Below, piece by piece: positions 1,599 through 30,512 of a DNA stretch of 30,512 nucleotides. The stretch spans positions 1 through 30,512 of the IMG/VR virus record IMGVR_UViG_3300008012_005713; one strand, written 5' to 3'. The notes under the pieces were generated by a model that made no database searches, was not told the DNA's origin, and saw only the letters and a program-made list of their open reading frames with translations. This DNA comes from a virus. The position numbers were made by a program, and so were the translations under genes. Every line of letters begins with the position of its first letter. Position 1 is the first letter of the stretch.

Positions 1599-1825
1599 GT
1601 CTAGAACAGCAGGCAGAAGATATCACAAAGGGCATTGCTGATTTTGTAATGTATTCTGAAGGTGCTATTGACTGGCCTACTGCCTGGCATATGGGCGTAG
1701 TCGATCAGGTTATGGTACTACAATCTTTTAGTTCGTATATTACTGCCAAGAACGGCGGTAAAAAAGATAATGAAATGAAACAGGAAATGATACCTGATAC
1801 TGCACCTCCGCCATCAGAGGAATAA
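1547..1825 (+). CDS. 51: gp51-like C-terminal extension, translated as a -1 frameshift fusion with gp26
   Basis: In the -1 frame relative to gene 26, 92 codons run from the slippery site to TAA 1823-1825. The frame is closed upstream by TGA codons at 1493 and 1499. It has no ATG, GTG or TTG before an ATG at 1649, by which point 34 protein-like codons have passed (GADPEQIRDYLGSLEQQAED). Independent initiation would therefore lose a third of the sequence, whereas a -1 shift at 1541-1547 joins both parts. The product has a helical N-terminal half, an aromatic stretch (AIDWPTAWHMGVVDQ) and a short polar tail. In T4, gp51 (about 250 aa) is a separate hub-assembly factor encoded directly after 26. 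Its position supports the assignment, but I do not see direct sequence identity. The last 12 nt overlap the convergent minus-strand gene. Confidence 0.7.
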   Translation, partial: LKFLGGADPEQIRDYLGSLEQQAEDITKGIADFVMYSEGAIDWPTAWHMGVVDQVMVLQSFSSYITAKNGGKKDNEMKQEMIPDTAPPPSEE

Positions 1826-2710
1826 GTCTTTACTGTTATTGCCTTTTAATTGTTCCACATGGTTAACACCATCATCATGCTCGTTTATCAAATGCTCTAA
1901 GTCAAGTTGTTCTAACTGGTCTACTATAGATTCGATTTCGTCGGATAGATAACAATACTCTGAAACACAATTAATCACATTACCAGGAACTACACTTGCT
2001 TGTAATTTATACTTGGTACGATCAAACATTGGTATTTGTTCATTGTGTTTTAAATGCAGTAATGCATGGTTAATGTTTCTGTGCATTACAAGACGCATAG
2101 CATCGAGTTCTTGTGCCGCTATACCAATGAACCCTTGATGTGTATTGTGTTGCATAGCGACGTTTATAATGCGTTGTAGACCCCCTAAGTGACTGCACAC
2201 TAATACTCTGTTATACAGTTGGAACCAACTTAATTTAAGTATGTAATTATCATGCTGTGGGTCTAGTAGGTCGCGGAAAGATACAGTATGCTCCGGCTTA
2301 AAATTTTTTACATTCCTGCCCAGCATATATCCAGCATCATCTTGCTTTATTATCCAATCGGCATACTCAGGTGCTTCGCTGTTTGTTTTAACTATGATTT
2401 CATCAGGGGAATCCTTGTACACCGACTCTGCTACATGTTGTGGAAACTGTTGCACAAGAAAACACATACTGCCTATCTTGGCAAACTCATGTGCAACTGT
2501 TACATCATGCTCTGCTATAGCCAATACACATTCTAGGAAGTCTTGTGGATGTCCTGATAAACCGTTGTGTTGTTTATCCAATAAAAGTTTAAACAATCCT
2601 AAGTTTCTAAAAGTCATGAGGTTGTCGATGAAACTGTTATTGTTTAAGTTATCACATGCTTCAAGAAATTCATGTTTTATGTGTAACCAATTATCTTCTA
2701 CTGGTATCAT
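1814..2710 (-). CDS. Acyl-CoA-dehydrogenase-fold protein (HsaA/flavin monooxygenase-like), shortened
   Basis: The 298-residue product has the N-terminal helical pattern of acyl-CoA dehydrogenase-type flavoproteins: LGLFKLLLDKQHNGLSG at about 37-53, FLECVLAIAEHDVTVA at about 58-73, then QQFPQHV. It also has a C-terminal helical segment (SHLGGLQRIINVAMQ at about 173-187, then AAQELDAMRLVMHRNI). The family normally has about 380-400 residues. Here the middle beta domain is reduced to about 60 residues, so flavin or substrate binding may be altered and catalysis is uncertain. No Shine-Dalgarno precedes the ATG; instead CATAAATA ends 5 nt before it, suggesting a leaderless late mRNA. Its 3' end overlaps the gene 51 frame by 12 nt. 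A structural or regulatory use of the fold is possible. The family call is by pattern only. Confidence 0.55.
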   Translation of the reverse strand: MIPVEDNWLHIKHEFLEACDNLNNNSFIDNLMTFRNLGLFKLLLDKQHNGLSGHPQDFLECVLAIAEHDVTVAHEFAKIGSMCFLVQQFPQHVAESVYKDSPDEIIVKTNSEAPEYADWIIKQDDAGYMLGRNVKNFKPEHTVSFRDLLDPQHDNYILKLSWFQLYNRVLVCSHLGGLQRIINVAMQHNTHQGFIGIAAQELDAMRLVMHRNINHALLHLKHNEQIPMFDRTKYKLQASVVPGNVINCVSEYCYLSDEIESIVDQLEQLDLEHLINEHDDGVNHVEQLKGNNSKDLFL

Positions 2711-3297: not shown

Positions 3298-3795
3298 ATG
3301 GAGCATTTTACGATCACCGGCATTTTGACTAAAGATCAGTGTTCTGAAATAATAAACAAATTACCAGACGAATCTCCCAACCCTGGGGGTCTTACAATGG
3401 TACCTGGTTACTGGACTGACACCAACTGGAATAACACACATAAAACATTTAATACGCACCGGTTACGATTAACACAGGAGTTAGCAGAGTATGTTAGCAG
3501 TTTGATCAAGCCAGTAAGTATAGATTCAGAACCATACATAATAACAAATCATAATGTTTTCTATGCTAATTATTATAACAAAAATGACACTTGTACTAAA
3601 CACAAAGATCTATCAAAGTACTCTATATGTATTCCCCTCAATGACGAGTTTGAAGGCGGGATATTTTATATTGAGGATAAGCCTGTAGAACTAAAAGCAG
3701 GGGACGGAATAGTTTTTCCAGGTGATACAGAACATGAAGTAAGCAAAGTTATTTCTGGTACTAGATGGAGTTTATGTATCTGGATTATGGAGTGA
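3298..3795 (+). CDS. 2-oxoglutarate/Fe(II)-dependent oxygenase (prolyl-4-hydroxylase-like)
   Basis: This 165-residue protein carries the iron-binding facial triad H102-x-D104 (THKT-type context KHKDLSK) and H146 (DTEHEV), plus R156 (GTRWSL) for 2-oxoglutarate. The double-stranded beta-helix strands lie between them: SICIPLND, GGIFYIED, AGDGIVFPGD. Family members hydroxylate amino acids, nucleotides or small molecules using 2-oxoglutarate and O2. Similar small enzymes are common in marine T4-like phages, with mostly unknown substrates. The N-terminal 30 residues resemble the usual capping helix (TKDQCSEIINKLPDE). It sits alone in a plus-strand segment behind a leaderless-type late octamer. Its 3' end overlaps the convergent GIY-YIG gene by 24 bp. 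The family call is firm and the substrate unknown. Confidence 0.85.
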   Translation: MEHFTITGILTKDQCSEIINKLPDESPNPGGLTMVPGYWTDTNWNNTHKTFNTHRLRLTQELAEYVSSLIKPVSIDSEPYIITNHNVFYANYYNKNDTCTKHKDLSKYSICIPLNDEFEGGIFYIEDKPVELKAGDGIVFPGDTEHEVSKVISGTRWSLCIWIME

Positions 3796-4215
3796 ATCTT
3801 TAACGCCTTCACGTAAGATTTTTGAACCACCTACTCGAACGTTGATAATACCATTGTAGTAGTCATCACGCAATAACACTTTTCTTTCAAATTGTTCTCT
3901 TGCTTCTATATAACTAGCAACGCCTCTGCTAGGACAAAAGTATAAAATCTCTCTGGTAAATTTATCTTCACCTAGTGCTTCTACGTCTTCTTTTAGATTG
4001 TCTGAACTGCCCCAATAAGTTTGCCAATCGCTTTCTTTGAAACCACGGCGTTTATTCTTTTTGCCTTTGAGTGGTGGTTTAGTAGTTTTAAACTTTGCTA
4101 GTTTCTTACCTACATACTTTTTGTTATTTGTGTTGTTAGTAATTAGATACACGAATGCTTCGCAATCTTCGGGTAAGTTGTCTACTGCCTTTCCGTTGTA
4201 TGTCCAGTTGCTCAC
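3772..4215 (-). CDS. GIY-YIG family endonuclease-like protein (SegE-type)
   Basis: The 147-residue product begins at GTG 4215-4213, directly abutting the TAG of gene 46, which implies coupled translation. Residues 22-36 (VYLITN ... KKYVGKK) match the two strands of the GIY-YIG fold, with Y23 and Y34 in the diagnostic positions. A basic linker (KTTKPPLKGKKNKRRG) and an aromatic block (WQTYWGSS) follow. Glutamates in ASYIEAREQFE (E104, E107, E110) are candidates for the metal-binding residue. T4 SegE-like nucleases and their marine phage relatives share this plan, and family members cut DNA, often as free-standing homing enzymes. Being last in the 55-47-46 operon, it could instead be a stable replication/recombination accessory. 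The fold is likely and activity uncertain. Confidence 0.7.
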   Translation of the reverse strand: MSNWTYNGKAVDNLPEDCEAFVYLITNNTNNKKYVGKKLAKFKTTKPPLKGKKNKRRGFKESDWQTYWGSSDNLKEDVEALGEDKFTREILYFCPSRGVASYIEAREQFERKVLLRDDYYNGIINVRVGGSKILREGVKDSLHNPDT

Positions 4216-13643: not shown

Positions 13644-14461
13644 TGGCATACATAGATGATCTAAATATAGGGCAGTTGGATCCATCGGATAATGTACCGT
13701 TAAGTTATTGTAACCCAGGTGGTTTTTATATAGGATCACATTTTGAAGGCACAGATTATCTTACTGGAGTATATTCTAAAACAAATACAGTAGTACCTAA
13801 ATTTATTCTGCCTAATTTAGTAGATACGACTCAAATTTTAATACATGCAAATGATTTTATAATTGGTAATTTTAATACATATCTTGTGCCAACTGAAATA
13901 CAAAACGAAACATACATTGGTATATCTCATAAAATGAGTTCTCTAGAAATATCAAACAAAATGATAGCATTCAATGATTATAGTAAACTGGATTTAGATC
14001 ATCCTGATGTAAGAAAAATTATTAGAAATAATCATGCTTACTTACAAGGAGCAACTATTATTAAAAATGGTAGAGTTGATTATGAATTAGCAGTAAAATC
14101 AATTGCTGTATATGACCAAATAAATAATTTTTATGTTTATAGTCTAGTAAATGGTGCAAAACCAGAATTTATCGATAGGCTGTATAAACTTGATTTGACC
14201 CGTGCTTTTAGTGTGGTAGTAGACAGAGTCAAAGTACCGCTTAATACAAATCAAACAGTTGCATTAATATCTCTAGCATTTGATATAGGTATGAAAAAAT
14301 TTACAACTAGCAAATTAATAAAAGCACTCAATAGTGAAAATTATAATTGTGCTACATACTTTATGGAGTTTACTGAAATACCTATTAAAAGAGGTAATGG
14401 AATCAGCACATTATTATACAATAGACGTGTAGCCGAAGCCAACCTATTTAGTCGAATTTAA
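13643..14461 (+). CDS. GH24 lysozyme-fold protein, probably with a degenerate active site
   Basis: The ATG at 13643 overlaps the gene 5 stop (TAATG) and has AAGGA about 10 nt upstream. It is preferred over an in-frame ATG at 13601 inside gene 5, giving 272 aa. Residues 182-270 match the C-terminal lobe of phage lysozymes: LTRAF, KVPLNTNQTVALISLAFDIG, FTTSKLIKALNSENYNCATYF, then LLYNRRVAEANLFSR. The catalytic half is much weaker. E148 and D158 could align with the Glu and Asp of GH24, but the usual TIGYGH segment is replaced by FYVYSLVNG and the catalytic Thr is missing. The N-terminal 130 residues are unrecognised and may bind gp5. It may be the detached lysozyme of the spike or a structural derivative. 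Confidence 0.6.
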   Translation: MAYIDDLNIGQLDPSDNVPLSYCNPGGFYIGSHFEGTDYLTGVYSKTNTVVPKFILPNLVDTTQILIHANDFIIGNFNTYLVPTEIQNETYIGISHKMSSLEISNKMIAFNDYSKLDLDHPDVRKIIRNNHAYLQGATIIKNGRVDYELAVKSIAVYDQINNFYVYSLVNGAKPEFIDRLYKLDLTRAFSVVVDRVKVPLNTNQTVALISLAFDIGMKKFTTSKLIKALNSENYNCATYFMEFTEIPIKRGNGISTLLYNRRVAEANLFSRI

Positions 14462-14650
14462 TTCTCTTTGTAAATCAGAAATTTTAACAAATGCTCTATA
14501 CTTTGCATCTGACTCTTCAGCAACAGACACTTTAAGCATTTTTATTTCTTCTCTAAGTGCATTACACTCGTTGTTTTTTTCAACGAGCATAATTCTTAAA
14601 TCTTCTTCTAAGGTATTGTTTGTGAATTTTTTTGTTAAGTGGTCGGTCAT
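14444..14650 (-). CDS. Small coiled-coil protein of unknown function
   Basis: This 68-residue protein is almost entirely polar and helical. A heptad-like stretch (EKNNECNALREEIKMLKVSV at about 24-43) predicts a coiled coil. Its ATG overlaps the stop of the upstream 87-aa gene (TAATG on the minus strand), so the pair is translationally coupled. The 3' end overlaps the convergent lysozyme-like gene by 18 bp. No family was recognised. The overlap and coupling support a real gene. Confidence 0.6.
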   Translation of the reverse strand: MTDHLTKKFTNNTLEEDLRIMLVEKNNECNALREEIKMLKVSVAEESDAKYRAFVKISDLQRELNSTK

Positions 14651-14913
14651 TATTTTACAGTGATAACTCTTTTCATGTCATCCAGTTCAGGAATTACATC
14701 TACATTTCTTGCAATGTAATCTCTTATAAAAACTAAGGCATATCTTTTAGTTTTAGAATTATAAAATCCCAAACTATCAAACTTGCCTCTCCTATCTCTT
14801 TGTATCATAGAGTGAATTACAGTCTTACCACTTGCTGAATTAATGTGACTGGCCTTTTCCTCTAGATCTTTAAAAGTAGATACAATATTCTTAATAATTT
14901 TATCAGTTTTCAT
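14650..14913 (-). CDS. Small protein of unknown function, 87 aa
   Basis: The ATG at 14913 has AGGAC 4-5 nt upstream and a candidate sigma70-type promoter just before it. The protein is basic at the N-terminus (MKTDKIIKNIVSTFKD). It has a central strand-like section (KTVIHSMIQRDRRGKFDSLGFYN) and a C-terminal part ending RYALVFIRDYIARNV then DDMKRVITVK. It forms a two-gene unit with the following coiled-coil gene. No family was recognised and no membrane segment or signal peptide is visible. Confidence 0.6.
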   Translation of the reverse strand: MKTDKIIKNIVSTFKDLEEKASHINSASGKTVIHSMIQRDRRGKFDSLGFYNSKTKRYALVFIRDYIARNVDVIPELDDMKRVITVK

Positions 14914-14989: not shown

Positions 14990-16975
14990 TTACCAGTTAT
15001 AATGTAATGTCAAGTAAATTTCTCTACCTTGTGTATTATAAAAAGGAACAACCTCTACAATTTCATCTGTTATGTTTTCTGCTTTAAAAGAAAGTGTTAA
15101 GCCATTTGTAAACACTTTGGTTACATATAAGTTTAACTTATTTAGATCTTCCAAATACTCCTGCCCTTCTTCTAATACATCATAGGGACCAGGTGCTCTA
15201 TCTAAATTAAATGCGTACTTTAATCTAAAGTTTACATCAAAAAAGTCTTCGCTGTATTGTAACACACCAGCAAATTTAGGTACTCTAGTTTGGTCTGTAT
15301 CAGTATATTTTAACATTATAAAAACAGGACCAAAGTTATTTGCATATCTAACACCTGCTGTGGTGTACTCTCCTGTGTTAGAATATGTAGCCATAGTGTA
15401 AACTGGATTATTATCTTCTACAATTTCATATGCACAACCTAATGGCATTCCATCTGATGCTGTATAATTAGGATCTAAAACACAACCACCATATGTACCA
15501 TCTGTATTAACAGATGCTTCAGCATCTAATTCCAATGATGTTGTAATATTGTCTGTATAATATCCTGGAACATACTCTATTGATTCTTCAAAATCATACA
15601 TAAACACACTTAGCACACCATATCCTAATTCAATGCCTACACCTTTTTCAGGTTCTAGTTCTTCATTACCTTGTACATATCCATCGCCAAACTTTTCATA
15701 TAGATTAGGCTTTCTAAAACTGTTTCCTATATTAAAGAACCAGTCGCCTTTTTCAATACCCAGTCTAAGAGCATTCTGATCATCGTTGCCCAGTCTAATA
15801 CCAAAGTTATAATTTAGTATAAAGTTAGCATTGGCTTGAAAGTATATACCTCCATTTTCGTCTGAATACTTTTCATCTATTTGTGTTAGAGTATATACAC
15901 CGTTACCTTGTATAACTTCATATGCATTATCAAGATCAGGTTCTATTGTACCGTTCCACAAAGGTAATAATGTACCATCATTATATGTTAAATTTTCATC
16001 TGTAAAGGAACCTGGTCTTGTATCACTTACTAAAACTGTTTCAGATCCTTCCACATTTTGCCAACTGCTTGTATTGTAATACTGTTTTTCTACATCTATA
16101 CCAAATGCAACATTTAAACTTTGACTGAGTTCTACTTGATTGCCTATTCTAAAATAATCTCTATAACCCTCATTTAAATATGTAGGATCTTCTACTGTGA
16201 AATACTCAGCAGTATTATAGTTTCTACCTATTGTAATATAATCATTTCTAATAGCAATATTATATCTTTGGCCGTCTTGTAAACAGTCATTGCTTTGGCC
16301 CCAATTATAATCATAACAGTTGTCATAGTCGTATTCGTATTCAGTAAACTTACCTACAATAGTAAAGTCTCCTGCATCTACATTAAACCTAGCAGTTTTG
16401 TTTTCGTAATTATCTTCCTCTTCATTGTCATTACGAACACTATCCATGCCATCTTTAACCGTACTAAACTCTAACTGATCTATTGGAGCAACTCTGACAT
16501 AGTTTATACCATCTTCTACTCTAAGTGTAATACCTCTTTCTATTGTATCCTGTATAAGTACTGATCCTGCCATACTGCCTGAGCCATATATAACACCATT
16601 TGCACCAGTAATTACTTTTACTGTTTGTCCACTTGCAAAGTCATGTCCAAAGTCATACCAACTTGCCCCTGGATCATTTGCCGGGATACCATTCACATAA
16701 ACTGAAGTGTGAGATGTTTGAGCACCTCTTTCATTGAAACCTACAAAGCCTCCATAGCCACCTGGATTCCAAGTAAAGGCTGGCATAATAGCACTTATTA
16801 AACTACCGCTAGTTATTGGGTCTGCTTTGACCACTTTTTCTTGTTGAGCAGTTACAACAATTTCTTCTATCTCGTCTGCTTTAGCCTCTACTGCCCATAA
16901 TAGAAAAAACATCACAACTGCGGCAATGTAAAGTGGACTAAAGTTTATGTGAAAGTTTTTATCAAATTCGTTCAT
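14990..16975 (-). CDS. TonB-dependent outer-membrane receptor (BtuB/FepA-type), apparently complete
   Basis: The 661-residue product has a signal-peptide-like N-terminus (hydrophobic about 13-29, then VEAKADE). A Ton box IEEIVVTAQ at about 36-44 follows. The plug domain at about 50-150 contains VGFNERGAQTSHTSVYVNGIP, DPGASWYDFG, then VKVITGANGVIYGSGSMAGSVLIQD, the usual GPxSxLYGSxAxGGVI region. A C-terminal part rich in alternating aromatic strands and acidic loops fits a 22-strand barrel: SFRKPNLYEKFGDGY, LSFKAENITDEIVEVVPFYNTQGREIYLTLHYNW. The last residue is an aromatic Trp, as outer-membrane insertion requires. Family members import cobalamin, ferric siderophores or other scarce nutrients using TonB energy. 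No truncation is visible. It begins 2 nt after the nucleosidase gene, so the two are co-expressed. Such receptors are unexpected in T4-like phages. The substrate is unknown. Confidence 0.9.
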   Translation of the reverse strand: MNEFDKNFHINFSPLYIAAVVMFFLLWAVEAKADEIEEIVVTAQQEKVVKADPITSGSLISAIMPAFTWNPGGYGGFVGFNERGAQTSHTSVYVNGIPANDPGASWYDFGHDFASGQTVKVITGANGVIYGSGSMAGSVLIQDTIERGITLRVEDGINYVRVAPIDQLEFSTVKDGMDSVRNDNEEEDNYENKTARFNVDAGDFTIVGKFTEYEYDYDNCYDYNWGQSNDCLQDGQRYNIAIRNDYITIGRNYNTAEYFTVEDPTYLNEGYRDYFRIGNQVELSQSLNVAFGIDVEKQYYNTSSWQNVEGSETVLVSDTRPGSFTDENLTYNDGTLLPLWNGTIEPDLDNAYEVIQGNGVYTLTQIDEKYSDENGGIYFQANANFILNYNFGIRLGNDDQNALRLGIEKGDWFFNIGNSFRKPNLYEKFGDGYVQGNEELEPEKGVGIELGYGVLSVFMYDFEESIEYVPGYYTDNITTSLELDAEASVNTDGTYGGCVLDPNYTASDGMPLGCAYEIVEDNNPVYTMATYSNTGEYTTAGVRYANNFGPVFIMLKYTDTDQTRVPKFAGVLQYSEDFFDVNFRLKYAFNLDRAPGPYDVLEEGQEYLEDLNKLNLYVTKVFTNGLTLSFKAENITDEIVEVVPFYNTQGREIYLTLHYNW

Positions 16976-16977
16976 TT

Positions 16978-17523
16978 TTATTTTATTAAATCCTTTAATG
17001 TGGACTCGAACATCTCGACACCTAATGCTTTATTCGCCTGCCATTCGGATGTCTGATCTCCTTGTCCGATTATATCGCTTATAAACTTTAAACATTTAAA
17101 GTCTACGCCAAAATGCATACACACTTTAGCGATTGCATAAGCCTCCATGTCAACTACATTGCAATAACCATCAGGTTTAGTTGTAGCAAACTTATCTTGA
17201 GTATAACATGTAAATCCTTTGTGGTCAACCACAATTTCTTGGGTATTTGTTTCAAATGGTGTTTGATATTTGTCAAAGCCAAATTCTCTACAATCCATAT
17301 CTGCTTGTACAAATTTTCCAATGTGCAACATGCCTTTCATATTAGGGTCTACTCCTCCAGCAGTACCATAATTGATAACCAGTTCTGTATCTGGATTATT
17401 TGTCAAATACTCAGTGAGTTTAAGTGTGGCGTTAATCTTACCAACACCTGTAATAATTGTGTTATAGTTGCCTTGCAATCCTTCGAGTTCGTCTGCCAGT
17501 GCAACTGCTAAAACATATTTCAT
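16978..17523 (-). CDS. Nucleoside phosphorylase-family enzyme, MTA/SAH nucleosidase-like
   Basis: The 181-residue product has PNP/UDP family motifs: ITGVGKINATLKLTEYL at about 24-40 (phosphate/ribose-site strand), VINYGTAGGVDP at about 49-60, NVVDMEAYAIAKVC with E127 (ribose-binding MEAxA), and KFISDIIGQ with D150 (the catalytic Asp of nucleosidases). E12 in ADELEGL may correspond to the Glu that activates water in MTA/SAH nucleosidase. The likely reaction is hydrolysis of methylthioadenosine, S-adenosylhomocysteine or a related nucleoside to adenine. It is shorter than the usual 230 aa, so one loop or the dimer segment is reduced. AGAGG lies 5-8 nt before ATG 17523. It heads a two-gene unit with the TonB-dependent receptor. 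The family is secure, the substrate inferred. Confidence 0.8.
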   Translation of the reverse strand: MKYVLAVALADELEGLQGNYNTIITGVGKINATLKLTEYLTNNPDTELVINYGTAGGVDPNMKGMLHIGKFVQADMDCREFGFDKYQTPFETNTQEIVVDHKGFTCYTQDKFATTKPDGYCNVVDMEAYAIAKVCMHFGVDFKCLKFISDIIGQGDQTSEWQANKALGVEMFESTLKDLIK

Positions 17524-21600: not shown

Positions 21601-22849
21601 AGACAGACCACTGCAATTTGAAATTGTGGATTCATACAGATATGGTGACGGCTTTGCCGATCCGGCAAAAGTTGTTGTTAAACCTGTCGACAGCGACTAT
21701 GATGGTTTTCCAGATGATCCAGACTTATTTGACAAGTTTGTAGGTAGCACAGACTTTGTTTTCTTTGAGCAATACACTGACTTAGATGGCTATACATACG
21801 AAAGACCAGCAAAATTCAAAATATTAAATTTTGCAACTGAAACAGAAATATCAGTTGATTATGTATTAGACACAGTTGCTCCAGGTAGTGACCCAGATAA
21901 CAAAACACCATTTACAGATTTTGATTTGATTATTGTAAAAGATTTAAGTGTAGCAGAAAAATATCTAAAAAATAATTTAGGTAAACTTAATCACAAATTA
22001 GTTTTTCCAAGATCGCTTTTACCTAAAGTATATGAATTAATCAATGACTTAACAACACCTAAAATGATTGTACTAACAGAAAACAACCAGTACAATGTAA
22101 AAGTAGGTAGAAGTTTTGAGCAAAACACATTACAGGCAAATCCAAGAAAATGTTCATTTGAATGGCAACACATTGCTCCAAGTGATGTTAGAATAGATCC
22201 TAGTATCAGCAATGTTGTTGAAATGTTTATGCTTACTAAATCGTATTATCAAGCAATGCTAAGTTATAAAAATGGCGGTACTAGTATATTGCCTAGTGCA
22301 CCAACTTCAGAACAACTTGCACAAGATTTTGCAGGCTTAGATGAATTTAAGAGTGTTAGTGATCAATTAGTTTACAGCAGTGGTAAATTTAAATTATTAT
22401 TTGGCAATGACGCAGAACCAGAATTACAAGCAAAAATTAAAGTTGTAAAACTACCAGGAAGTACAACTACAGATGCAGAAGTTAGAAGTGCGGTGTTAGA
22501 ATTAATTGACACTTATTTTAATGTAGAAAACTGGGACTTTGGTGAAACATTTTATTTCTCAGAATTAAGTGCGTACATTCATCAGGAACTAGGTAAAGCA
22601 ATAGCATCAGTAGTAATTGTGCCTAGTAAGTCCGAATCTATATTTGGAGATTTATATCAAGTTAGAGCGGCATCAGATGAATTATTCTTTTCTACAGCAA
22701 CAGTGGATAATGTAGAAGTAGTTAAAAGTCTATCTTCAGCAAATTTAAAACAATTGAAAGGCAACGTAATTAATAAATCATCTACAACAAACAGTAGCAG
22801 TAGCAGTAGCAGTAGCAGTAGCAGTGGTTCAAGTGGAAGTGGATACTAA
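18638..22849 (+). CDS. 6: Baseplate wedge protein gp6, enlarged
   Basis: The 1403-residue protein opens with a gp6/J-like N-terminal core: AYQAFTQVSFKAYDFSTMRTSMLNYI, FIAIIELLAYLSQSLSFRADLN, LRLADMLGYAPKRNIPASGLVKI. This resembles the part of T4 gp6 that forms the ring joining six wedges. A further conserved portion lies at about 370-430 (NRMVSAQDYNVFPLSQSVNILKLKS). The acidic segment DSDYDGFPDDPDLFDKF at about 1012-1028 and the C-terminal part (about 1190-1350) also look conserved. T4 gp6 has 660 aa; the extra length lies mostly in the region about 450-1000, rich in Asn, Thr and Ser. The C-terminus ends in a poly-Ser/Gly tail coded by a hexanucleotide repeat. GGAG precedes the overlapping start. 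Gene 7 position follows with a TAATG overlap. Confidence 0.88.
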   Translation: MSISNRNQNLFAAEDWELAYQAFTQVSFKAYDFSTMRTSMLNYIRENYPESFNDYIESSEFIAIIELLAYLSQSLSFRADLNTRENFLATAESRDSILRLADMLGYAPKRNIPASGLVKIDSIETDEPLLDASGESLQDIRIDWNDPTNANSFDQFITVLNSAFSVTNPFTKPIVEGTVGGIATQIYGFNNEIGSTPIFPTSATVNGVSVPFEFVSTHIENGVFKEAQPDIYSQMRICYRNDKRGLESPYTGFFMMFKQGVLSFEDYIFERALPNRTVDIPVANINETDVFVHQMDNNAVNQLTWQKVSNLQGQTLLYNATSLESRNLYAIDNLFDDGVRIRFSDGNFANIPSGIFRIYYRTSIGENLSIRPADFQNKELVLPYYNRKGELHRLTLRMSLKGTVSNGSAAETLQSIKRRAPQTYYTQNRMVSAQDYNVFPLSQSVNILKLKSTNRTHAGHSRYIDIEDPTGRFSSVTSFADDGALYKDIENKDTYLTFGTSRTAMQILKEDVANITKDVNLQNFVYDDYRKLHKGLDALAFDLTSNNKDITWVTQPSKNKNNTGYFTRLDGGIRTTLNNSVNENRIIQAGSYIKFKNPNDPTQEELATITSITNNGVPTNLLSVTEGVVKLNKEIPNAWRATEIIPTLNSNSLETDIGNAFDTRIKAKEDFGIGYNFRPGGSNITHWYVIDNSNLQKNADFNPDLTSGASWLMKFEYNSTNSTTNISNYTVTTRGTRIIFESLKDIKFYFSSDEKTFDSKTGRVLKDTIALTTANFKPELVETYNWVDTNLDDIGDSWQLESTNATYTPNVGNSPEIILRSRDTKAKDLEIRFISNFGLLVNGEASVSPTADYSQGDFAPAVSTTIAVDPISATTGKAVVKLNSAKLSALPSGITIPLSKFGTSIIGGANGNIAYVNYDTGSSSYKTYTGNATTTTFEVGDSASEGFIDLTSNTSLKISDFDSLSSRWNGFKHADKLQVVYKNVKESLDRPLQFEIVDSYRYGDGFADPAKVVVKPVDSDYDGFPDDPDLFDKFVGSTDFVFFEQYTDLDGYTYERPAKFKILNFATETEISVDYVLDTVAPGSDPDNKTPFTDFDLIIVKDLSVAEKYLKNNLGKLNHKLVFPRSLLPKVYELINDLTTPKMIVLTENNQYNVKVGRSFEQNTLQANPRKCSFEWQHIAPSDVRIDPSISNVVEMFMLTKSYYQAMLSYKNGGTSILPSAPTSEQLAQDFAGLDEFKSVSDQLVYSSGKFKLLFGNDAEPELQAKIKVVKLPGSTTTDAEVRSAVLELIDTYFNVENWDFGETFYFSELSAYIHQELGKAIASVVIVPSKSESIFGDLYQVRAASDELFFSTATVDNVEVVKSLSSANLKQLKGNVINKSSTTNSSSSSSSSSSSGSSGSGY
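22793..22825 (+). repeat. AGTAGC microsatellite coding for 11 serines at the end of gene 6
   Basis: Eleven serine codons alternate AGT and AGC for 33 bp, which is 5.5 perfect copies of AGTAGC. They are followed by GGT TCA AGT GGA AGT GGA TAC and the stop. Copy-number changes by replication slippage in steps of six would keep the frame and only alter the length of a flexible tail. Confidence 0.9.
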
Positions 22850-25800
22850 TGACAAACAAATTTTTTGATCTATTACCTATACAGCACCAAACTAGTGTTA
22901 ATAAAAATTTCTTTGAAAGCACAGTTGAGCAATTATTTTCAAAAGCAAATATAGAAAATATACAAGGCTTTATAGGGACACCAAGAGAAATAGGTAGTAG
23001 CAATACATCCTTTGTAGAGCAACCAGCACCTAATAGAGAATACTACAGTTTTGATCCTGTAGTGACTACTATAAATCCAGATTCGGGTAAACCTGTAAAT
23101 TATGTTTTCTATGAGGACTTTTTGTATGACATAAGAAGCAAAGGTGGCTTAATCGATAACCACGACAGATTATTTAAAACAAATCAATATGCATTTGCAC
23201 CGCCTATAAACATAGACAAATTAATTAACTATCAAGATTACTATTGGTACCCAACAGGTCCAGAAGTTACTGAAATTAATGGTAATGCAAACGTACAAAT
23301 TAACATAGATAACATACAAGGTCTAAAGTCATATACATCGCCAGCAGGTCAAGAACTTAGAAATGACATGGTAGTAAAATTCACAGGCGACCATATTTCA
23401 AATACCAGTGTGCTAACTAAAGATACTGCTTATATTGTTACAGGCGTAGGAAAAGGAATACAATTTATTTTGCCAGGCGATTCCACATCTGCTTATGCAG
23501 AATTTAGTGATTTTCCTTTAGAACAATCAATTTCAATAACATATACTCAGGCAAATTCCAGTTCGTATTATAATTTAGAAACAACTTTACCAGAAGATTT
23601 TGTTGTTACACCAGGTGGTGATTTCAAAGAGTACTATAGAAACTTAGCAGATAGTGAGGCATCAGGAGCCGCAAGTGCATCAGTGCATAATAATACTAGA
23701 CTGTACATTGGTAATCTTGCACTCAAAGTAGGCGATGCAGTAGCGGCCAATGTATATTATTTAGGTAACAATGCCCAGAGAACAGGAAACGTTGTTTACT
23801 TAGATGTCGAATCATTAGGCAACTATTTATTGCCTGATAGTGTGCAAGGGACTAGAAATTTTGCATTAGACGATTATCATCAAACATATATACAACCGCA
23901 ACTACAATGGAACATTGATACAGTTTACGGTTGGGGCGCAACACCATGGGGATCAGAATCAACACAAAATCAACCTGATTACATGGTTATGGAAAAAGGT
24001 GCTAAAAATAAGAATCCATGGAGTAGATTAAATTACTGGTGGCATGTAAACGAGTTACGGCAACCACTTAAAGATAATGTAACGGGATTTGCTTTGCCAG
24101 AATCGGCTCAAAGAGCAACACGACCTATTTTAGAATTTGATAGAGATATAGAACTATATAATTGGGGCAACTCATTTATATCTAAAGTGGACATAATAGC
24201 AGATAAGAAAAAAGAAGATCTAGAAGGATTGGCATTAGGATTCCCAATTAATAGTGCATCGGGTACTGCAAATGCCAGTATTATTTTTCCACAAGACGAT
24301 ACAGCAATAGCAGAAAAAATTTATAGAATACAAGACAACAGCGGTACAATTCAATTTGTTGAAGATACATCTTTAAGTAATTTAGTTGTTACTAATGGAC
24401 AGGTGTATAGCATCACAGGAACTAATATAGGTTTAGATTACTATTGGACAGGCACATCATGGAAACAAGCACAACAAAAAATTCAAATTAATCAAGAGCC
24501 GTTATTTAATTTATATGACTCTGCAGGTACAAAAGTAGATGACCCTGCAAAATATCCGCACAGTGATTTCAAAGGCTGTCCTGTATTTACATACAACACT
24601 GATAAAACAAGTACTAAACAAACATCATATGATGCAGTTTTAGGTGCTAATGTTGTTTACCAAACAAGCAAATTCAACAGTGAGCCAACATTTTTTAATC
24701 ATCTGGGTAATCATACAGTAAATTACAAAGCAAATTTATTAGCAAATACATCTACAATACCTGGATATTTGTTTTACAAAGATTTACAACAAGATTATAA
24801 AGGCAATGACAACACAAGATTTAAGAACAATTGGCATCCAATAAGTTATCCACATCAATACAGAGACTTTAGTAATGTAGAAACATATTTTACAAACGAA
24901 GTTGTAAAATACGAAGGGCAATATTTTATAGCAAATGCAAATATTTCTGCAGGTAGTTTTAATATTAGTAATTTTAAATATTATGAAGACGATAATTCCT
25001 TATATTCAAAACAGTATGTAGAAGATGTCATTATAATTGACAAAGTTAATTCAGCAGATAAATTTTTTACAACAAGTGCATCACCTCACAATAATGATAT
25101 AATTGTTAAATTAAACGATACTGCTCTCACTATAAACAAAGACTTCGCAATTAGAAATAGCAGTACAGGTATTGTAATAAATCCTACACTTAATGACGTG
25201 TCATTAAATAACACAGGTTTAGGGTATGAAGTTGGTGATATACTTACTTTAAGTATAGCAGGAAGCAATAGTAATATTGCAATTACTGTTACCGATGCAG
25301 AATCATATGACGGAAACATCAGTAACGGCGGCGGACAGATTAAAACTATTTCAGTTTCAAACTATGGCCTTTACAGCGAATTGGTTGGCCACCCTGGAAA
25401 TATTACATCAATTGTTACTACAGCATCTAATAACGGACACGGAGTCGATGCAACATTTAACTTTACATTTAATCAAACAGTAACTTTAAAAAATACAGAT
25501 GTATTAAATGTTAAGACATTTACAAAAGAAGGAAGAAAAACAACAATTGATTCATACGGATTCTTTGAGATTCCAAGTGCATTAAAATATAATCCGTTGA
25601 ACACTGAAATCACAGAAACCAGATTGAGCGATCTTATTGGTCATGGAAATAAATTGTTACTAGGGCAAGAAGGTTTTAGCGGTAAAGTCACTGGCAATAA
25701 CAATTTCAAAGATACAAGTAAAACATTTAATGTAAATGATATTAACATTGGCCAAATAGATTCTGATTTACTGCACTCCATGTATTTAAGTAAGAACGAA

Positions 25801-28800
25801 GACAGGAATTTAATTAATGCATTGAGATTTGGCAATGATCAATACAATAACTTTAAAAAGAAATTTATATCAAATTTAGAACTTTATATCAATAACAATG
25901 ACTATTTAAGTCAAACAAATTTAGAAATACTAGACACGGTACTAAAAACTATAAAATCTAGCAAAGTCACTGAAGGTGGGTTTGACTTGTCTTATATGGT
26001 TCCAATTGGTACAGATTACAGCAATGAAGAAATTGTAATTAGCAATGTGAGTTTACAGGAATACACATTTAGTAACACAGTCAATATTGCATTAGATAAA
26101 AACTTATACATATTACAACATAATAATACAGTTTTATGTGCAGACAAAGATTTTACTGTGGATTCATACTTACCGTTTGATATTACATTGAACAATAGTA
26201 TTACATTAGCAGAAAATGACACTCTAAATTTACGAATATATGAAGACAGCGAATCTGCAGATGTTCCAGCAAGTTTATCTAAACTAGGTATGTTTAGGGC
26301 ATTCCAGCCTCAGTTTATGACCGATACATCATATCAGGTCAACAAAGATGTAATTTTGTGTCATGATGGTAGTTATGTGATTAAACAAAACGACAAAATT
26401 GATGATATTATATTAACATTTGAACAAATTATTTACAGTAATATAGAAGAAGAATACAGGAACTGTGAATACATAGAACTAAATGAGTATGAAATTAAAC
26501 CAAGTTTCTTCTGTGAAACCGATTACAGCCTAGTTGAATACAACAAATTATTAACCACAAATTTTAACAAATGGAATAGACAAAGCAAAGTAGATTATAG
26601 AACAAATACTGTATTCGATAGCACAAATGAATTTACATGGAATTATGCAAGTGGACCCACAGAACCAGGATACTGGAGAGGCATGTATGATTACTACTAT
26701 GATACACAAACACCTACAGTTACTCCGTGGGAAATGTTTGGCTACTGTAAAAAGCCATCATGGTGGGACACTGAATATCCAACAGCAATTACAAGTTCAT
26801 ATACAGCATTTTGGAATAATGTTAGAGATGGATACATACCAGCAGGAAGTAGAAAAGGATACTGGAAACGTTGGGCAAGACCAACTATTTATAGTTACTT
26901 GCCAGTTGATTCCTCTGGTAACTTAAGATCACCCAAAGAAATAGTTTACACATCGCTCACAGGAGATTCTTTAAACATAGACAATCTATGGGCCTTCGGT
27001 GATATTGCACCAGTAGAATATGCTTGGAGAAAAAGCAGTCACTATCCGTTTGCAATATTAGAAATGCTTTACTTGTCTAGACCAGGTGAGTTTGCTAAAT
27101 TATTTTATGATAAAAGAAATTTACAAAGATTAAGTGTTCAGCCTGAGCAACTAGTTGACAAAACTACAGGTAAACGTAAATTAAGACAAAATTTTGAACC
27201 ACATGGTTATAAGTCTACAGACAATATTATAACATTGAGACCAGGATACACGACATTATTATATCAATATTTGTCATTTTACTCATTGAATATAAATGTT
27301 GAAATAGGAAATCCTGTTAAAACTTTGGACACACGACTAGGGCATAAATTTGCAGGATTTGTAAACAGTAAACAACTTAACGTCTTTAGTGAAAGCATCA
27401 GTACAGATGGGTTAAGTGCAAGTCAAGTACTGCCTAAAGAAGATGTAACAGTAAACTTACATACAAGTCCTTTTAACAGTAGAAACTTTTACACAGGTGT
27501 AAAAATTACAAAACAAGCAGAAGGATATAGTGTTTCAGGTTTTGATACAGTATCGCAATATTTTGATATTATACCTAGTGATGTTGCAGGGCCATTTGAA
27601 GGCGTACAAGAAGGCGGGACTCCAGCAGACTTTAGTGTATTCGAAACACTAGCATCTTATCTCAAAGACGAAATTATTAAATTAGGTAGTGTTTATTACA
27701 TAGCCAAACAGAATATATCACCAGGTGCATTTGATTCTAATATGTGGACACCGTTAAAATCATTGCCCACAATTGGCGGAGCATCCGGTACTGTCTATCA
27801 ATTAGGCACAGGTGTTACAGAAAAAGTTTATTACGATACAGTATTTCAAAATGCAGGAAAAGTTTTTGATTTCTTAATAAGTTTAAGCAGAAAACAAAAA
27901 GAGATTGGCTTTGACTTTGGCGAGTTTGATAGCAGTATTAATAGCATGAATGACTGGATACTTGCAGGAAAACGATTCCTATTTTGGTCAACAGAAAATC
28001 ATGAAATCGGTGATAGTATTAAACTAAGTCCGTTAGCAGAGACATTAAAATTTGTTAGTACAACTGGTAAAATATCAAAAATTAACAGGCAAATTAATGA
28101 ACAATATTCTATAGTAGACGAAAACAACAAAGCAATTATACCTGAAGACTGTTCAATTGTTAGAGAAGATAATACAATTACTGTTTCTCCAATTGGCAAT
28201 AGAATATATGGTATGCTGTTACATACAGAATTAGTTGAACATGCTTTTGTTATAAACAACAAAACAGTTTTCAATGATATAATTAACGACAATGTTCTTG
28301 GAATAAGACAAGACAGGCTAGAAATTAATACTCAACGAAGTAGAAATTGGGATGGTAGATATCAAGCAGAAGGTTTAGTGATTGTTGGCGATGCAGTATT
28401 GCCAAACTTTGATACACTAATAGACAGCATACGATTGTACCACGACAAAGATACTACACAATTAGATCCATTAAAATCGCAACTAGCAAAAGGATTACTA
28501 GGATATCAAACTACCAATGAGTATGCTGATATCAAAATAGATGACACCATTGGGTTCCAGTACTATAAAGGATTAATAAATCAAAAAGGTACTGCTAATT
28601 CACTTACAAGTTTGATTAGATCTAATGTTGTGAATACAAATAAAAACATTGAGATTTTTGAAGAATGGGCAATTAAACGTGGCGAATTTGGTGATGTTTA
28701 TAATCATCAAAGTATGGATATAAAATTAGAACAAGATAAGTTTACTAGAGATAATCAACAAATAGAAATAATTTATCCTGAAAATGTCACAGGTGCAGTA

Positions 28801-30512
28801 TCAAATATTTTTGTGTTTGAAAGAAATACAACATATTACAATGTACCTACCATAGAAATTGATCCACCAGCAAGTGGAAATGCCGCACAGGCAACAGCAA
28901 AACTTTTTGCTAATGCTCAATTAGAAAGTGTTACAATTACAAACGGCGGCGACGGATATGCAAGTAAGCCAAATGTTGCAGTTATTACAGGTAATATTGT
29001 TATTTCTCAATTTAGTGATGTATTAGCATTTGGATTAGCAGGCAGTAATGCTTCGGTAGATTTACCACTAACTGGTGCAAATGCAGTAACAAATGTAAAC
29101 ATATATGATCATACAACTGAAAGTAATTTAGACATTTACTTAGGCAATGAAAGAAGTATTGATAGTGTTGTTGAATTACTTAACAACAAATTTACCAATG
29201 CCAATATTGCAAATATTGTTGCATACGGAGACATTGATACTGAAACAGAAAAACACCTTGTGACCCAAGTCACTAAGGCTGGTTCTAATACTAGGATATC
29301 AACAGATAGAGCAACAATTACTTCTAACACATCAATAGAAATTAACACACCAGTTGGCAGTAATGCCTTTGTTATTACAAACGGTGCGTCAACTTTGACA
29401 TTAAGTAATGTTGATTCAATAACAAATACTAACCCTGCTACAGTTACATTAACAACTAAAACAGGATTTACGCCATTGCAAAATGGTGATACATTAACTT
29501 TTGTTAACCATGAACCTTATAGTGTTCTTACGTCAGACATACTGAATAAAACATATTTTGTAAAAGCAACTGCTGACTCAACTATATATGAATTATACAC
29601 AAATGAAACATTAACAGCAAACGTAGATGCTACTTCGTGGTACAATGAATCTGTAAGCGGTACAGATACACACTTACAATCTGTTGGAGCATATCGAAGT
29701 GCAGAAGCAGACCTAGTAAATGTAGATTTTAATTACAGTACAATTACAGGATCAGGAATTCGTAATACAAGTTATTTTGCAGAATTAAGTGCATTTAATA
29801 ATTCGTATTATGCAGAAGCAGGTACAAGTAATACACAAATTAAGTTATATACTGATCCAGCATTACAGATACCACTTAATACAACCGCATCATCAAAACC
29901 ATTCTCAGACACTAACCTTGCAAACGATTTCATACAAGCAAATGTTACAGTCTTAGGAACAGGCGGCGACAATAGGCTGTTTATAAAAGGTACCGATTTT
30001 ACTATTAGAGAAGTAAGACTGCCTGGTAAATTGTCAGATGAAACAACTCTAGAAGTTTTAAATATACCTGCAGGAAGATATCAGCCTACTCAAAGATTCC
30101 CAATAAGGTCTGCTAACAATACAACAACTAACGATATTATTGTTAGTGTAGACGGCAAAAACGTAGGTACAACATATTGGTCATATGATAGAGGTGCTAG
30201 AACTAGTATAACAGCAAATGCCTCAATTGTCAACGATTATAACATAAATCCTAACAATGCCTTTAGTATTGTTTTAGGAGGACAAAACAGGTTTGAAGAT
30301 CAAAATATTACTAGACTAAACGGATTATATCCATTTGCAGAAATTTACATTGATGGAAATAAAGTTAATAATACACCAGACTATGATGCATTTACATTAA
30401 CTAATAATTTAACTGAAACAACAATTAGTTTTAGTAATGCATCACTATACACTGATAATTTCAGCATTGGTTCTAACATTACAGTTATAGAAAGCGGTTC
30501 AGTACAATTTAA
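22849..30512 (+). CDS. Giant virion/baseplate protein in the gene 7 position (over 2,550 aa, C-terminus missing)
   Basis: The ATG overlaps the gene 6 stop. The frame stays open for 2,554 codons to the right edge, so neither the end nor the total size is known. Position after 25 and 6 matches T4 gene 7 (gp7, 1032 aa), but this is at least 2.5 times larger. The N-terminus is of the type seen in giant virion proteins of marine myoviruses: FFESTVEQLFSKANIENIQGF, VFYEDFLYDIRSKGGLIDNHDRLF, YAFAPPINIDKLINYQDYYWYP. A conserved Trp-rich block at about 1290-1420 reads PWEMFGYCKKPSWWDTEYP, then WAFGDIAPVEYAWRKSSHYPFAI, then FAKLFYDKRN. Gly-Tyr repeats (GLGYEVGD near 791, GGDGYASKP near 2033) suggest beta-rich modules. 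It is probably wedge plus peripheral fibre-like domains; its role is inferred. Confidence 0.75.
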   Translation, partial: MTNKFFDLLPIQHQTSVNKNFFESTVEQLFSKANIENIQGFIGTPREIGSSNTSFVEQPAPNREYYSFDPVVTTINPDSGKPVNYVFYEDFLYDIRSKGGLIDNHDRLFKTNQYAFAPPINIDKLINYQDYYWYPTGPEVTEINGNANVQINIDNIQGLKSYTSPAGQELRNDMVVKFTGDHISNTSVLTKDTAYIVTGVGKGIQFILPGDSTSAYAEFSDFPLEQSISITYTQANSSSYYNLETTLPEDFVVTPGGDFKEYYRNLADSEASGAASASVHNNTRLYIGNLALKVGDAVAANVYYLGNNAQRTGNVVYLDVESLGNYLLPDSVQGTRNFALDDYHQTYIQPQLQWNIDTVYGWGATPWGSESTQNQPDYMVMEKGAKNKNPWSRLNYWWHVNELRQPLKDNVTGFALPESAQRATRPILEFDRDIELYNWGNSFISKVDIIADKKKEDLEGLALGFPINSASGTANASIIFPQDDTAIAEKIYRIQDNSGTIQFVEDTSLSNLVVTNGQVYSITGTNIGLDYYWTGTSWKQAQQKIQINQEPLFNLYDSAGTKVDDPAKYPHSDFKGCPVFTYNTDKTSTKQTSYDAVLGANVVYQTSKFNSEPTFFNHLGNHTVNYKANLLANTSTIPGYLFYKDLQQDYKGNDNTRFKNNWHPISYPHQYRDFSNVETYFTNEVVKYEGQYFIANANISAGSFNISNFKYYEDDNSLYSKQYVEDVIIIDKVNSADKFFTTSASPHNNDIIVKLNDTALTINKDFAIRNSSTGIVINPTLNDVSLNNTGLGYEVGDILTLSIAGSNSNIAITVTDAESYDGNISNGGGQIKTISVSNYGLYSELVGHPGNITSIVTTASNNGHGVDATFNFTFNQTVTLKNTDVLNVKTFTKEGRKTTIDSYGFFEIPSALKYNPLNTEITETRLSDLIGHGNKLLLGQEGFSGKVTGNNNFKDTSKTFNVNDINIGQIDSDLLHSMYLSKNEDRNLINALRFGNDQYNNFKKKFISNLELYINNNDYLSQTNLEILDTVLKTIKSSKVTEGGFDLSYMVPIGTDYSNEEIVISNVSLQEYTFSNTVNIALDKNLYILQHNNTVLCADKDFTVDSYLPFDITLNNSITLAENDTLNLRIYEDSESADVPASLSKLGMFRAFQPQFMTDTSYQVNKDVILCHDGSYVIKQNDKIDDIILTFEQIIYSNIEEEYRNCEYIELNEYEIKPSFFCETDYSLVEYNKLLTTNFNKWNRQSKVDYRTNTVFDSTNEFTWNYASGPTEPGYWRGMYDYYYDTQTPTVTPWEMFGYCKKPSWWDTEYPTAITSSYTAFWNNVRDGYIPAGSRKGYWKRWARPTIYSYLPVDSSGNLRSPKEIVYTSLTGDSLNIDNLWAFGDIAPVEYAWRKSSHYPFAILEMLYLSRPGEFAKLFYDKRNLQRLSVQPEQLVDKTTGKRKLRQNFEPHGYKSTDNIITLRPGYTTLLYQYLSFYSLNINVEIGNPVKTLDTRLGHKFAGFVNSKQLNVFSESISTDGLSASQVLPKEDVTVNLHTSPFNSRNFYTGVKITKQAEGYSVSGFDTVSQYFDIIPSDVAGPFEGVQEGGTPADFSVFETLASYLKDEIIKLGSVYYIAKQNISPGAFDSNMWTPLKSLPTIGGASGTVYQLGTGVTEKVYYDTVFQNAGKVFDFLISLSRKQKEIGFDFGEFDSSINSMNDWILAGKRFLFWSTENHEIGDSIKLSPLAETLKFVSTTGKISKINRQINEQYSIVDENNKAIIPEDCSIVREDNTITVSPIGNRIYGMLLHTELVEHAFVINNKTVFNDIINDNVLGIRQDRLEINTQRSRNWDGRYQAEGLVIVGDAVLPNFDTLIDSIRLYHDKDTTQLDPLKSQLAKGLLGYQTTNEYADIKIDDTIGFQYYKGLINQKGTANSLTSLIRSNVVNTNKNIEIFEEWAIKRGEFGDVYNHQSMDIKLEQDKFTRDNQQIEIIYPENVTGAVSNIFVFERNTTYYNVPTIEIDPPASGNAAQATAKLFANAQLESVTITNGGDGYASKPNVAVITGNIVISQFSDVLAFGLAGSNASVDLPLTGANAVTNVNIYDHTTESNLDIYLGNERSIDSVVELLNNKFTNANIANIVAYGDIDTETEKHLVTQVTKAGSNTRISTDRATITSNTSIEINTPVGSNAFVITNGASTLTLSNVDSITNTNPATVTLTTKTGFTPLQNGDTLTFVNHEPYSVLTSDILNKTYFVKATADSTIYELYTNETLTANVDATSWYNESVSGTDTHLQSVGAYRSAEADLVNVDFNYSTITGSGIRNTSYFAELSAFNNSYYAEAGTSNTQIKLYTDPALQIPLNTTASSKPFSDTNLANDFIQANVTVLGTGGDNRLFIKGTDFTIREVRLPGKLSDETTLEVLNIPAGRYQPTQRFPIRSANNTTTNDIIVSVDGKNVGTTYWSYDRGARTSITANASIVNDYNINPNNAFSIVLGGQNRFEDQNITRLNGLYPFAEIYIDGNKVNNTPDYDAFTLTNNLTETTISFSNASLYTDNFSIGSNITVIESGSVQF

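Follow-up and report, generated by a model that had tools for sequence, protein, structure and literature searches.

Receptor Gene and Its Predicted Fold

The DNA analyzed here (hereafter, the window) is the 30,512-nt stretch of the IMG/VR virus record IMGVR_UViG_3300008012_005713. An intact gene for a TonB-dependent receptor (TBDR) was encoded on its minus strand, with an ATG start codon and a TAA stop codon. The following features were recognized in the gene:

14990–16975, minus strand: TBDR, 661 aa (Pfam Plug, BtuB profile alignment, AlphaFold2 and Foldseek, relatives on other viral contigs)
16877–16975, minus strand: signal peptide, residues 1–33, ending in ...VEAKA/DE (read by eye from the sequence)
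16847–16867, minus strand: TonB box EEIVVTA, residues 37–43 (read from the sequence; conserved in 41 sequences)
16541–16840, minus strand: plug domain, residues 46–145 (Pfam Plug; dN/dS)
14993–16534, minus strand: 22-strand beta-barrel, residues 148–661, with the terminal tryptophan W661 (AlphaFold2 secondary structure, PDB matches)
16406–16435, minus strand: acidic motif RNDNEEEDNY of extracellular loop L2, residues 181–190 (conserved in 41 sequences; placed by the AlphaFold2 strand count)
16283–16333, minus strand: motif YDYDNC...NDC of extracellular loop L3, residues 215–231, with two invariant cysteines (conserved in 41 sequences)

The Pfam Plug domain (PF07715) was detected at residues 45–137 with an E-value of 3e-8 and 34.5 bits, the curated cut-off being 23.9; none of the Pfam barrel models matched. 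No match was obtained in the PDB with the single sequence. The search with the TBDR profile retrieved BtuB, the cobalamin transporter of Escherichia coli, as the sole PDB family, and the profile aligned with BtuB from end to end (residues 18–660 with 10–613, hhalign probability 96.9, E = 1.4e-10). An AlphaFold2 model of medium confidence was obtained from an alignment of 41 sequences (pLDDT 76.9, pTM 0.69), superseding a run with 15 sequences (pLDDT 50.7). Its strands, counted by hand, could be assigned to 22 barrel strands and 11 outer loops, and nothing in the model indicated that the barrel cannot close. Foldseek matched the model to solved TBDRs with a probability of 1.00, the TM-scores with BtuB being 0.57–0.66.

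Close variants of the TonB box were present in all 41 aligned sequences of the family; E37, V41, and Q44 were invariant, and almost no variation was seen at I36 and E38. The signal peptide had an n-region without net positive charge. The Plug domain was detected in 12 of the 13 related records, the only record without it being the one with an empty site. All 88 complete homologues had an open reading frame, while one short copy stopped 39 bases from the end of its contig, and each of the 20 records inspected for copy number, a 250-kb contig included, carried a single copy. An earlier note, made from the sequence alone, had described a complete TBDR with a signal peptide, Ton box, plug, barrel, and terminal aromatic residue; the Plug match, the BtuB alignment, the structural comparison, and the sequence itself all bear out this description. 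The protein is an intact member of the TonB-dependent receptor superfamily and, judging by its sequence, is apparently functional.

Genomic Sites and Identity of the Phage

Relatives of the TBDR were found on 214 viral contigs; the earlier note had suggested looking for the same gene in neighboring phage contigs. The 118 TBDR loci were confined to two genomic places, 29 at site A and 89 at site B, with none in a third. At site A, the order of genes was nucleosidase–TBDR–87-aa protein–68-aa protein, amid and opposite to baseplate genes. At site B, the TBDR was located between the UvsX/349-aa region and a UvsW-like helicase; loci L054–L059 showed a variant placing. The genes adjoining the TBDR in the window were the following:

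16978–17523, minus strand: 181-aa nucleosidase of the PNP family (MTA/SAH-nucleosidase-like), which opens the operon (Pfam PNP_UDP_1, 4.5e-13)
14650–14913, minus strand: conserved 87-aa protein, 3' of the TBDR (found at site-A loci with a readable flank)
14444–14650, minus strand: conserved 68-aa protein (site-A loci; homologue in the TBDR-free A region of contig G006)

The nucleosidase gene, which also matched NCBIfam PRK05634 (5e-22, under the cut-off), ends 2 nt ahead of the TBDR start codon. Going by its family, the probable substrates of the enzyme are products of SAM use (MTA, SAH, and 5'-deoxyadenosine). Some phages of the B type (G012, G015, G017, and G020; L173–L176) likewise encoded PNP-family nucleosidases, which lay a few kb 3' of the TBDR.

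The T4-like structural setting that had been noted for the gene holds for the window, where T4-type baseplate genes surround it; in most relatives the TBDR lies in the replication region instead. Its position outside the T4 core was confirmed. The scans for helicase and gp25 loci were limited to the best 80 hits, so that the counts describe near relatives rather than all phages. The TBDR was present in 66 of the 77 readable helicase loci of the clade and missing from 11; in nine of the latter, only about 100 nt separated the 349-aa gene from the helicase behind it. All 12 readable gp25 loci (at least 80% identity) carried the TBDR at site A.

The gene content of the window included T4-type baseplate genes, gp46- and gp47-like genes, and, in part, a giant structural ORF, which begins in the window (22849–30510, plus strand) and has a counterpart of 21.3 kb, or about 7,093 aa, in the 90-kb relative G002. 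The 250-kb contig G006 combines a window-type structural region (about 31–80% protein identity) with the replication region of the relatives (TerL, gp32, UvsX, and helicase), and its TBDR was found at site B, the A region being without one. The nearest cultured phages were PA5oct-like phages (Arenbergviridae, 286 kb) and Sinorhizobium phage Phosso (469 kb), with identities of 53 and 47% for gp46 of the window, 57 and 51% for TerL of a site-B relative, and 54 and 55% for its helicase, respectively; the core synteny of this relative with PA5oct was partial. Judged by gene content and protein identities, the phage of the window is probably a T4-like jumbo phage with PA5oct (Arenbergviridae) and Phosso as relatives. 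Going by the contig numbers, its habitat may be marine. These cultured phages share the order from UvsX to the helicase with the TBDR clade but lack a TBDR in this interval, where the site-B members of the clade carry it.

Three other genes of the window deserve mention. A 2OG-Fe(II) oxygenase was encoded at 3298–3795 (plus strand); certain B-type phages have distant relatives of it close to the TBDR. A 298-aa protein encoded at 1814–2710 (minus strand) was weakly similar to flavin-monooxygenase oxygenase subunits (HsaA), which is unusual in a phage. A candidate GIY-YIG-type nuclease domain (YLITNNTNNKKYVGKK) was read by eye at 3772–4215 (minus strand).

Promoter-Like Signals

A promoter-like motif, TTGAC[A/T]-N16–18-TATAAT, was found in 75 of the 81 readable B loci, in the interval that opens 180 nt ahead of the TBDR start and closes 60 nt behind it; in most of the loci read by eye, it was located 5' of the start codon and past a terminator-like hairpin. 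The site-B TBDR usually has, by this prediction, its own sigma-70-like (host-type) promoter. At empty sites, the helicase was preceded by a similar motif of its own.

The 3' end of the gene carried a second signal. In 53 of the 63 helicase-adjacent loci, the gene's final codons, TTG ACA, together with its TAG stop, formed the −35 box and spacer of a predicted helicase promoter, as opposed to none of 28 loci at site A and none of 6 non-adjacent loci; these counts come from related sequences and are not independent events. In L007 and other B loci, the TAG stop was followed by TATAAT, as seen in a stretch made up of the final 20 bases of the gene and the 10 beyond it. None of the 146 internal Leu-Thr pairs was coded TTG ACA. 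The corresponding feature of the window was the following:

15008–15013, minus strand: codons TTG ACA for L655–T656 (TTGACA at the same place in 54 of 63 helicase-adjacent B-site genes)

Among the A alleles, TTGACA at the end of the TBDR was found only in the window lineage, and no TATAAT accompanied it there. These codons are probably left over from a −35 box that belonged to the helicase promoter at site B, and their retention at site A without TATAAT suggests that the allele moved from B to A. A clear strong promoter was not found for the site-A operon of the window. The T4 late promoter TATAAATA was matched once in the window, which is below the chance expectation.

At site B, the arrangement resembles phage morons, accessory genes that carry a promoter and are inserted between phage genes: the TBDR is an extra gene with a promoter-like site of its own between genes adjacent in relatives. 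It differs from them in that the TBDR occurs in jumbo phages, occupies two sites, and supplies with its 3' end the predicted −35 box for the gene that follows.

Exchange of the Gene between Phages

In a maximum-likelihood tree of the TBDRs, built by a quick method, at least four changes between sites A and B were each forced by strongly supported branches. Sister phages with baseplate proteins about 94% identical had TBDRs only 45–63% identical, whereas identity was 85% for otherwise divergent site-B phages, which implies that the ORF was swapped as a unit. The boundaries of the homology agree closely with those of the ORF. Between the window and site-B loci L007 and L008, DNA homology of about 85% extended from 2–4 bases 5' of the start codon to the stop codon. 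In the comparison with sister A phages, the flanks were mostly 77–93% identical while the ORF was 50–84% identical (L041) or less (L087), with the shift at the ORF ends. The synonymous divergence between the window and L041 was 1.26 for the TBDR, against 0.33–0.48 for most neighbors and 0.77–0.84 for two short neighbors in the operon; the excess of the TBDR over most neighbors points to replacement of the gene and not to rapid evolution at its locus. From these comparisons of sequences, we conclude that the TBDR ORF is exchanged between phages as a whole unit.

With respect to L010, L011, L012, and L015, the homology to the window started just past the signal peptide, so the leader was exchanged separately. 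A TBDR-type leader (MNEFDKNF..SPLLIAALVMFFMM) was also found on an unrelated 154-aa phage protein (L032:10001–10465), as a modular export leader.

Selection on the Receptor and Its Possible Role

In comparisons of the window TBDR with B alleles 77–86% identical to it, dN/dS was 0.05–0.07 for the plug, 0.10–0.15 for the strands, and 0.13–0.25 for the loops. Invariant positions among the 41 sequences made up 50% of L2 (12 positions, 179–190), 41% of L3, 40% of L6, and 33% of L7, against 14% of the strands, and the large loops L5 and L8 were the most variable of the outer loops. A conserved vestibule with variable lids, as predicted here, is consistent with a receptor that has a single common ligand. 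The purifying selection on the plug and the conservation of the TonB-box core and of L2 and L3 incline us somewhat toward active import of one conserved ligand, as against exclusion of competitors. The variability of L5 and L8, as in receptors that evade phages or bacteriocins, speaks against import.

The interpretation we lean to is that the TBDR is a working TonB-dependent transporter of an uncultivated clade of T4-like jumbo phages and imports one conserved scarce ligand. The protein would be secreted during infection and inserted into the outer membrane of the host, where the host TonB-ExbBD system would energize it via its TonB box. No TonB_C domain was found in 13 phage records, and the function would hence depend on the host system. 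The ligand, which may be corrinoid- or metal-complex-like, would be bound by the conserved acidic outer loops, and its import could sustain a long infection. Owing to the predicted host-type promoter at site B, the TBDR would probably be made early there. The ORF itself moves between these phages like an interchangeable cassette housed in one of the two sites. The parts of this proposal based directly on sequence are the fold, the intactness, the purifying selection, the two sites, the ORF-bounded swapping, and the promoter-like motifs. The proposal in the earlier note that this is a candidate auxiliary gene is plausible; both selection and prevalence were observed.

A narrower form of the import interpretation, in which the TBDR is an analogue of BtuB raising the supply of B12, appears doubtful. 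The earlier note had named cobalamin and iron as candidate limiting nutrients. BtuB alone among PDB families was retrieved with the profile, and it was one of the top fold matches. The two proteins share a plug, a 22-strand barrel, a TonB box, and an alignment over their full length, together with acidic motifs in L2 and L3, where BtuB has its Ca2+ sites, a lead in this direction, and a SAM-cycle-type nucleosidase is encoded in the same operon at site A. However, identity in the aligned columns was only about 28%, and the phage-encoded protein scored far under the equivalog cut-offs (20.3 bits for NF007926, cut-off 836; 19.9 bits for TIGR01779, cut-off 599.7). None of 13 records contained a B12-binding domain over the cut-off, and neither a cobalamin riboswitch nor any other Rfam match was found in the six sources searched. 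The only ribonucleotide reductase tested, that of G006, belonged to class Ia, which does not depend on adenosylcobalamin; a B12-dependent reductase as the reason for a B12 receptor was thereby ruled out for this phage.

Superinfection exclusion or receptor replacement, whereby the phage would alter the cell surface and bar competing phages or bacteriocins through competition for TonB or for membrane space, is in our assessment unlikely. TBDRs are common phage receptors, the alleles are swapped among phages with strong variation in L5 and L8, and a promoter of the early type, as predicted at site B, would be in keeping with such a role. A passive decoy, however, would need neither a TonB-box core and plug under the strongest purifying selection nor nearly invariant exposed loops L2 and L3, and the loop dN/dS against the nearer alleles gives no sign of diversifying selection. 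Exclusion by competition for TonB is possible. The earlier note had listed uptake and exclusion as possible roles; because conservation is greatest in the TonB-box core, plug, and a number of outer loops, exclusion is the less likely.

A neutral hitch-hiker, that is, a bacterial TBDR acquired by chance and unused by the phage, is very improbable. TBDRs are abundant in aquatic Gram-negative bacteria, but the complete copies are all open and under strong purifying selection, and the gene is carried by most members of the clade, recurrently exchanged, and provided with promoter-like motifs. No bacterial donor or close bacterial relative was found in two peptide-pattern scans of genome contigs (full alignment and plug segment, near-exact matches required). 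Searches of plasmids and of INPHARED by tblastn revealed no relative. As for a chimera of a bacterial and a phage contig at 14.4–17.6 kb, raised at the first reading of the sequence and in keeping with a local GC dip at about 14–15 kb, it is practically ruled out: six contigs from six datasets (L001–L006) showed the same locus, neighbors, and junctions with TBDRs of 99–100% protein identity, and phage genes flank the TBDR at the 29 site-A and 89 site-B loci.

Relation to Known Phage Receptors and Significance

A SusC-like TBDR was reported in the very large phages Mar_Mega_1 and LR745206 (Michniewski et al. 2021, PMC9723777). This remark on Mar_Mega_1 was the only precedent in very large phages found in our literature search, which covered mainly open-access journal articles. 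In the collection of predicted viral structures searched, the only match at E ≤ 0.001 was A0A8D9FQQ5, a SusC-type TBDR encoded by an uncultured marine phage, which we infer to be the Mar_Mega_1 protein. It is likewise a TBDR encoded by a very large phage, but it is 805 aa long, of the SusC type, and only 11% identical to the window TBDR over the structural alignment, whereas the family described here is BtuB-sized, conserved in another jumbo clade, and bound to two fixed sites. The paper on the pelagiphage Skadi mentions a TonB-dependent receptor protein between the tail tube and capsid genes, taken there as a pointer to the adsorption receptor. Part of the plug of the window TBDR was matched by phrog_5687, a 760-position PHROG family with no assigned function, and other phage proteins may therefore be unrecognized TBDRs.

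To our knowledge, the window TBDR family is the first to be seen as a near-core phage gene. TBDRs are known as doors for phages, and a widespread family of phages with a TBDR of its own inverts these roles. The overlap of the predicted helicase promoter with the TBDR stop and the ORF-precise swapping of alleles provide a clear example of a cargo gene that is interlaced with the regulation of its phage. From the sequences, these phages probably re-equip the surface of the infected cell. If so, they would refit its outer membrane and thereby either feed the infection or control competition for TonB and receptors; both ideas, import and exclusion, are directly testable with one gene. It is quite possible, if just short of probable, that a large uncultivated jumbo clade carries phage-specific active importers as near-core genes, with an early host-type promoter and with alleles traded between lineages at two dedicated sites. 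Should this be true, these would be viruses that actively take up nutrients through a receptor of their own.
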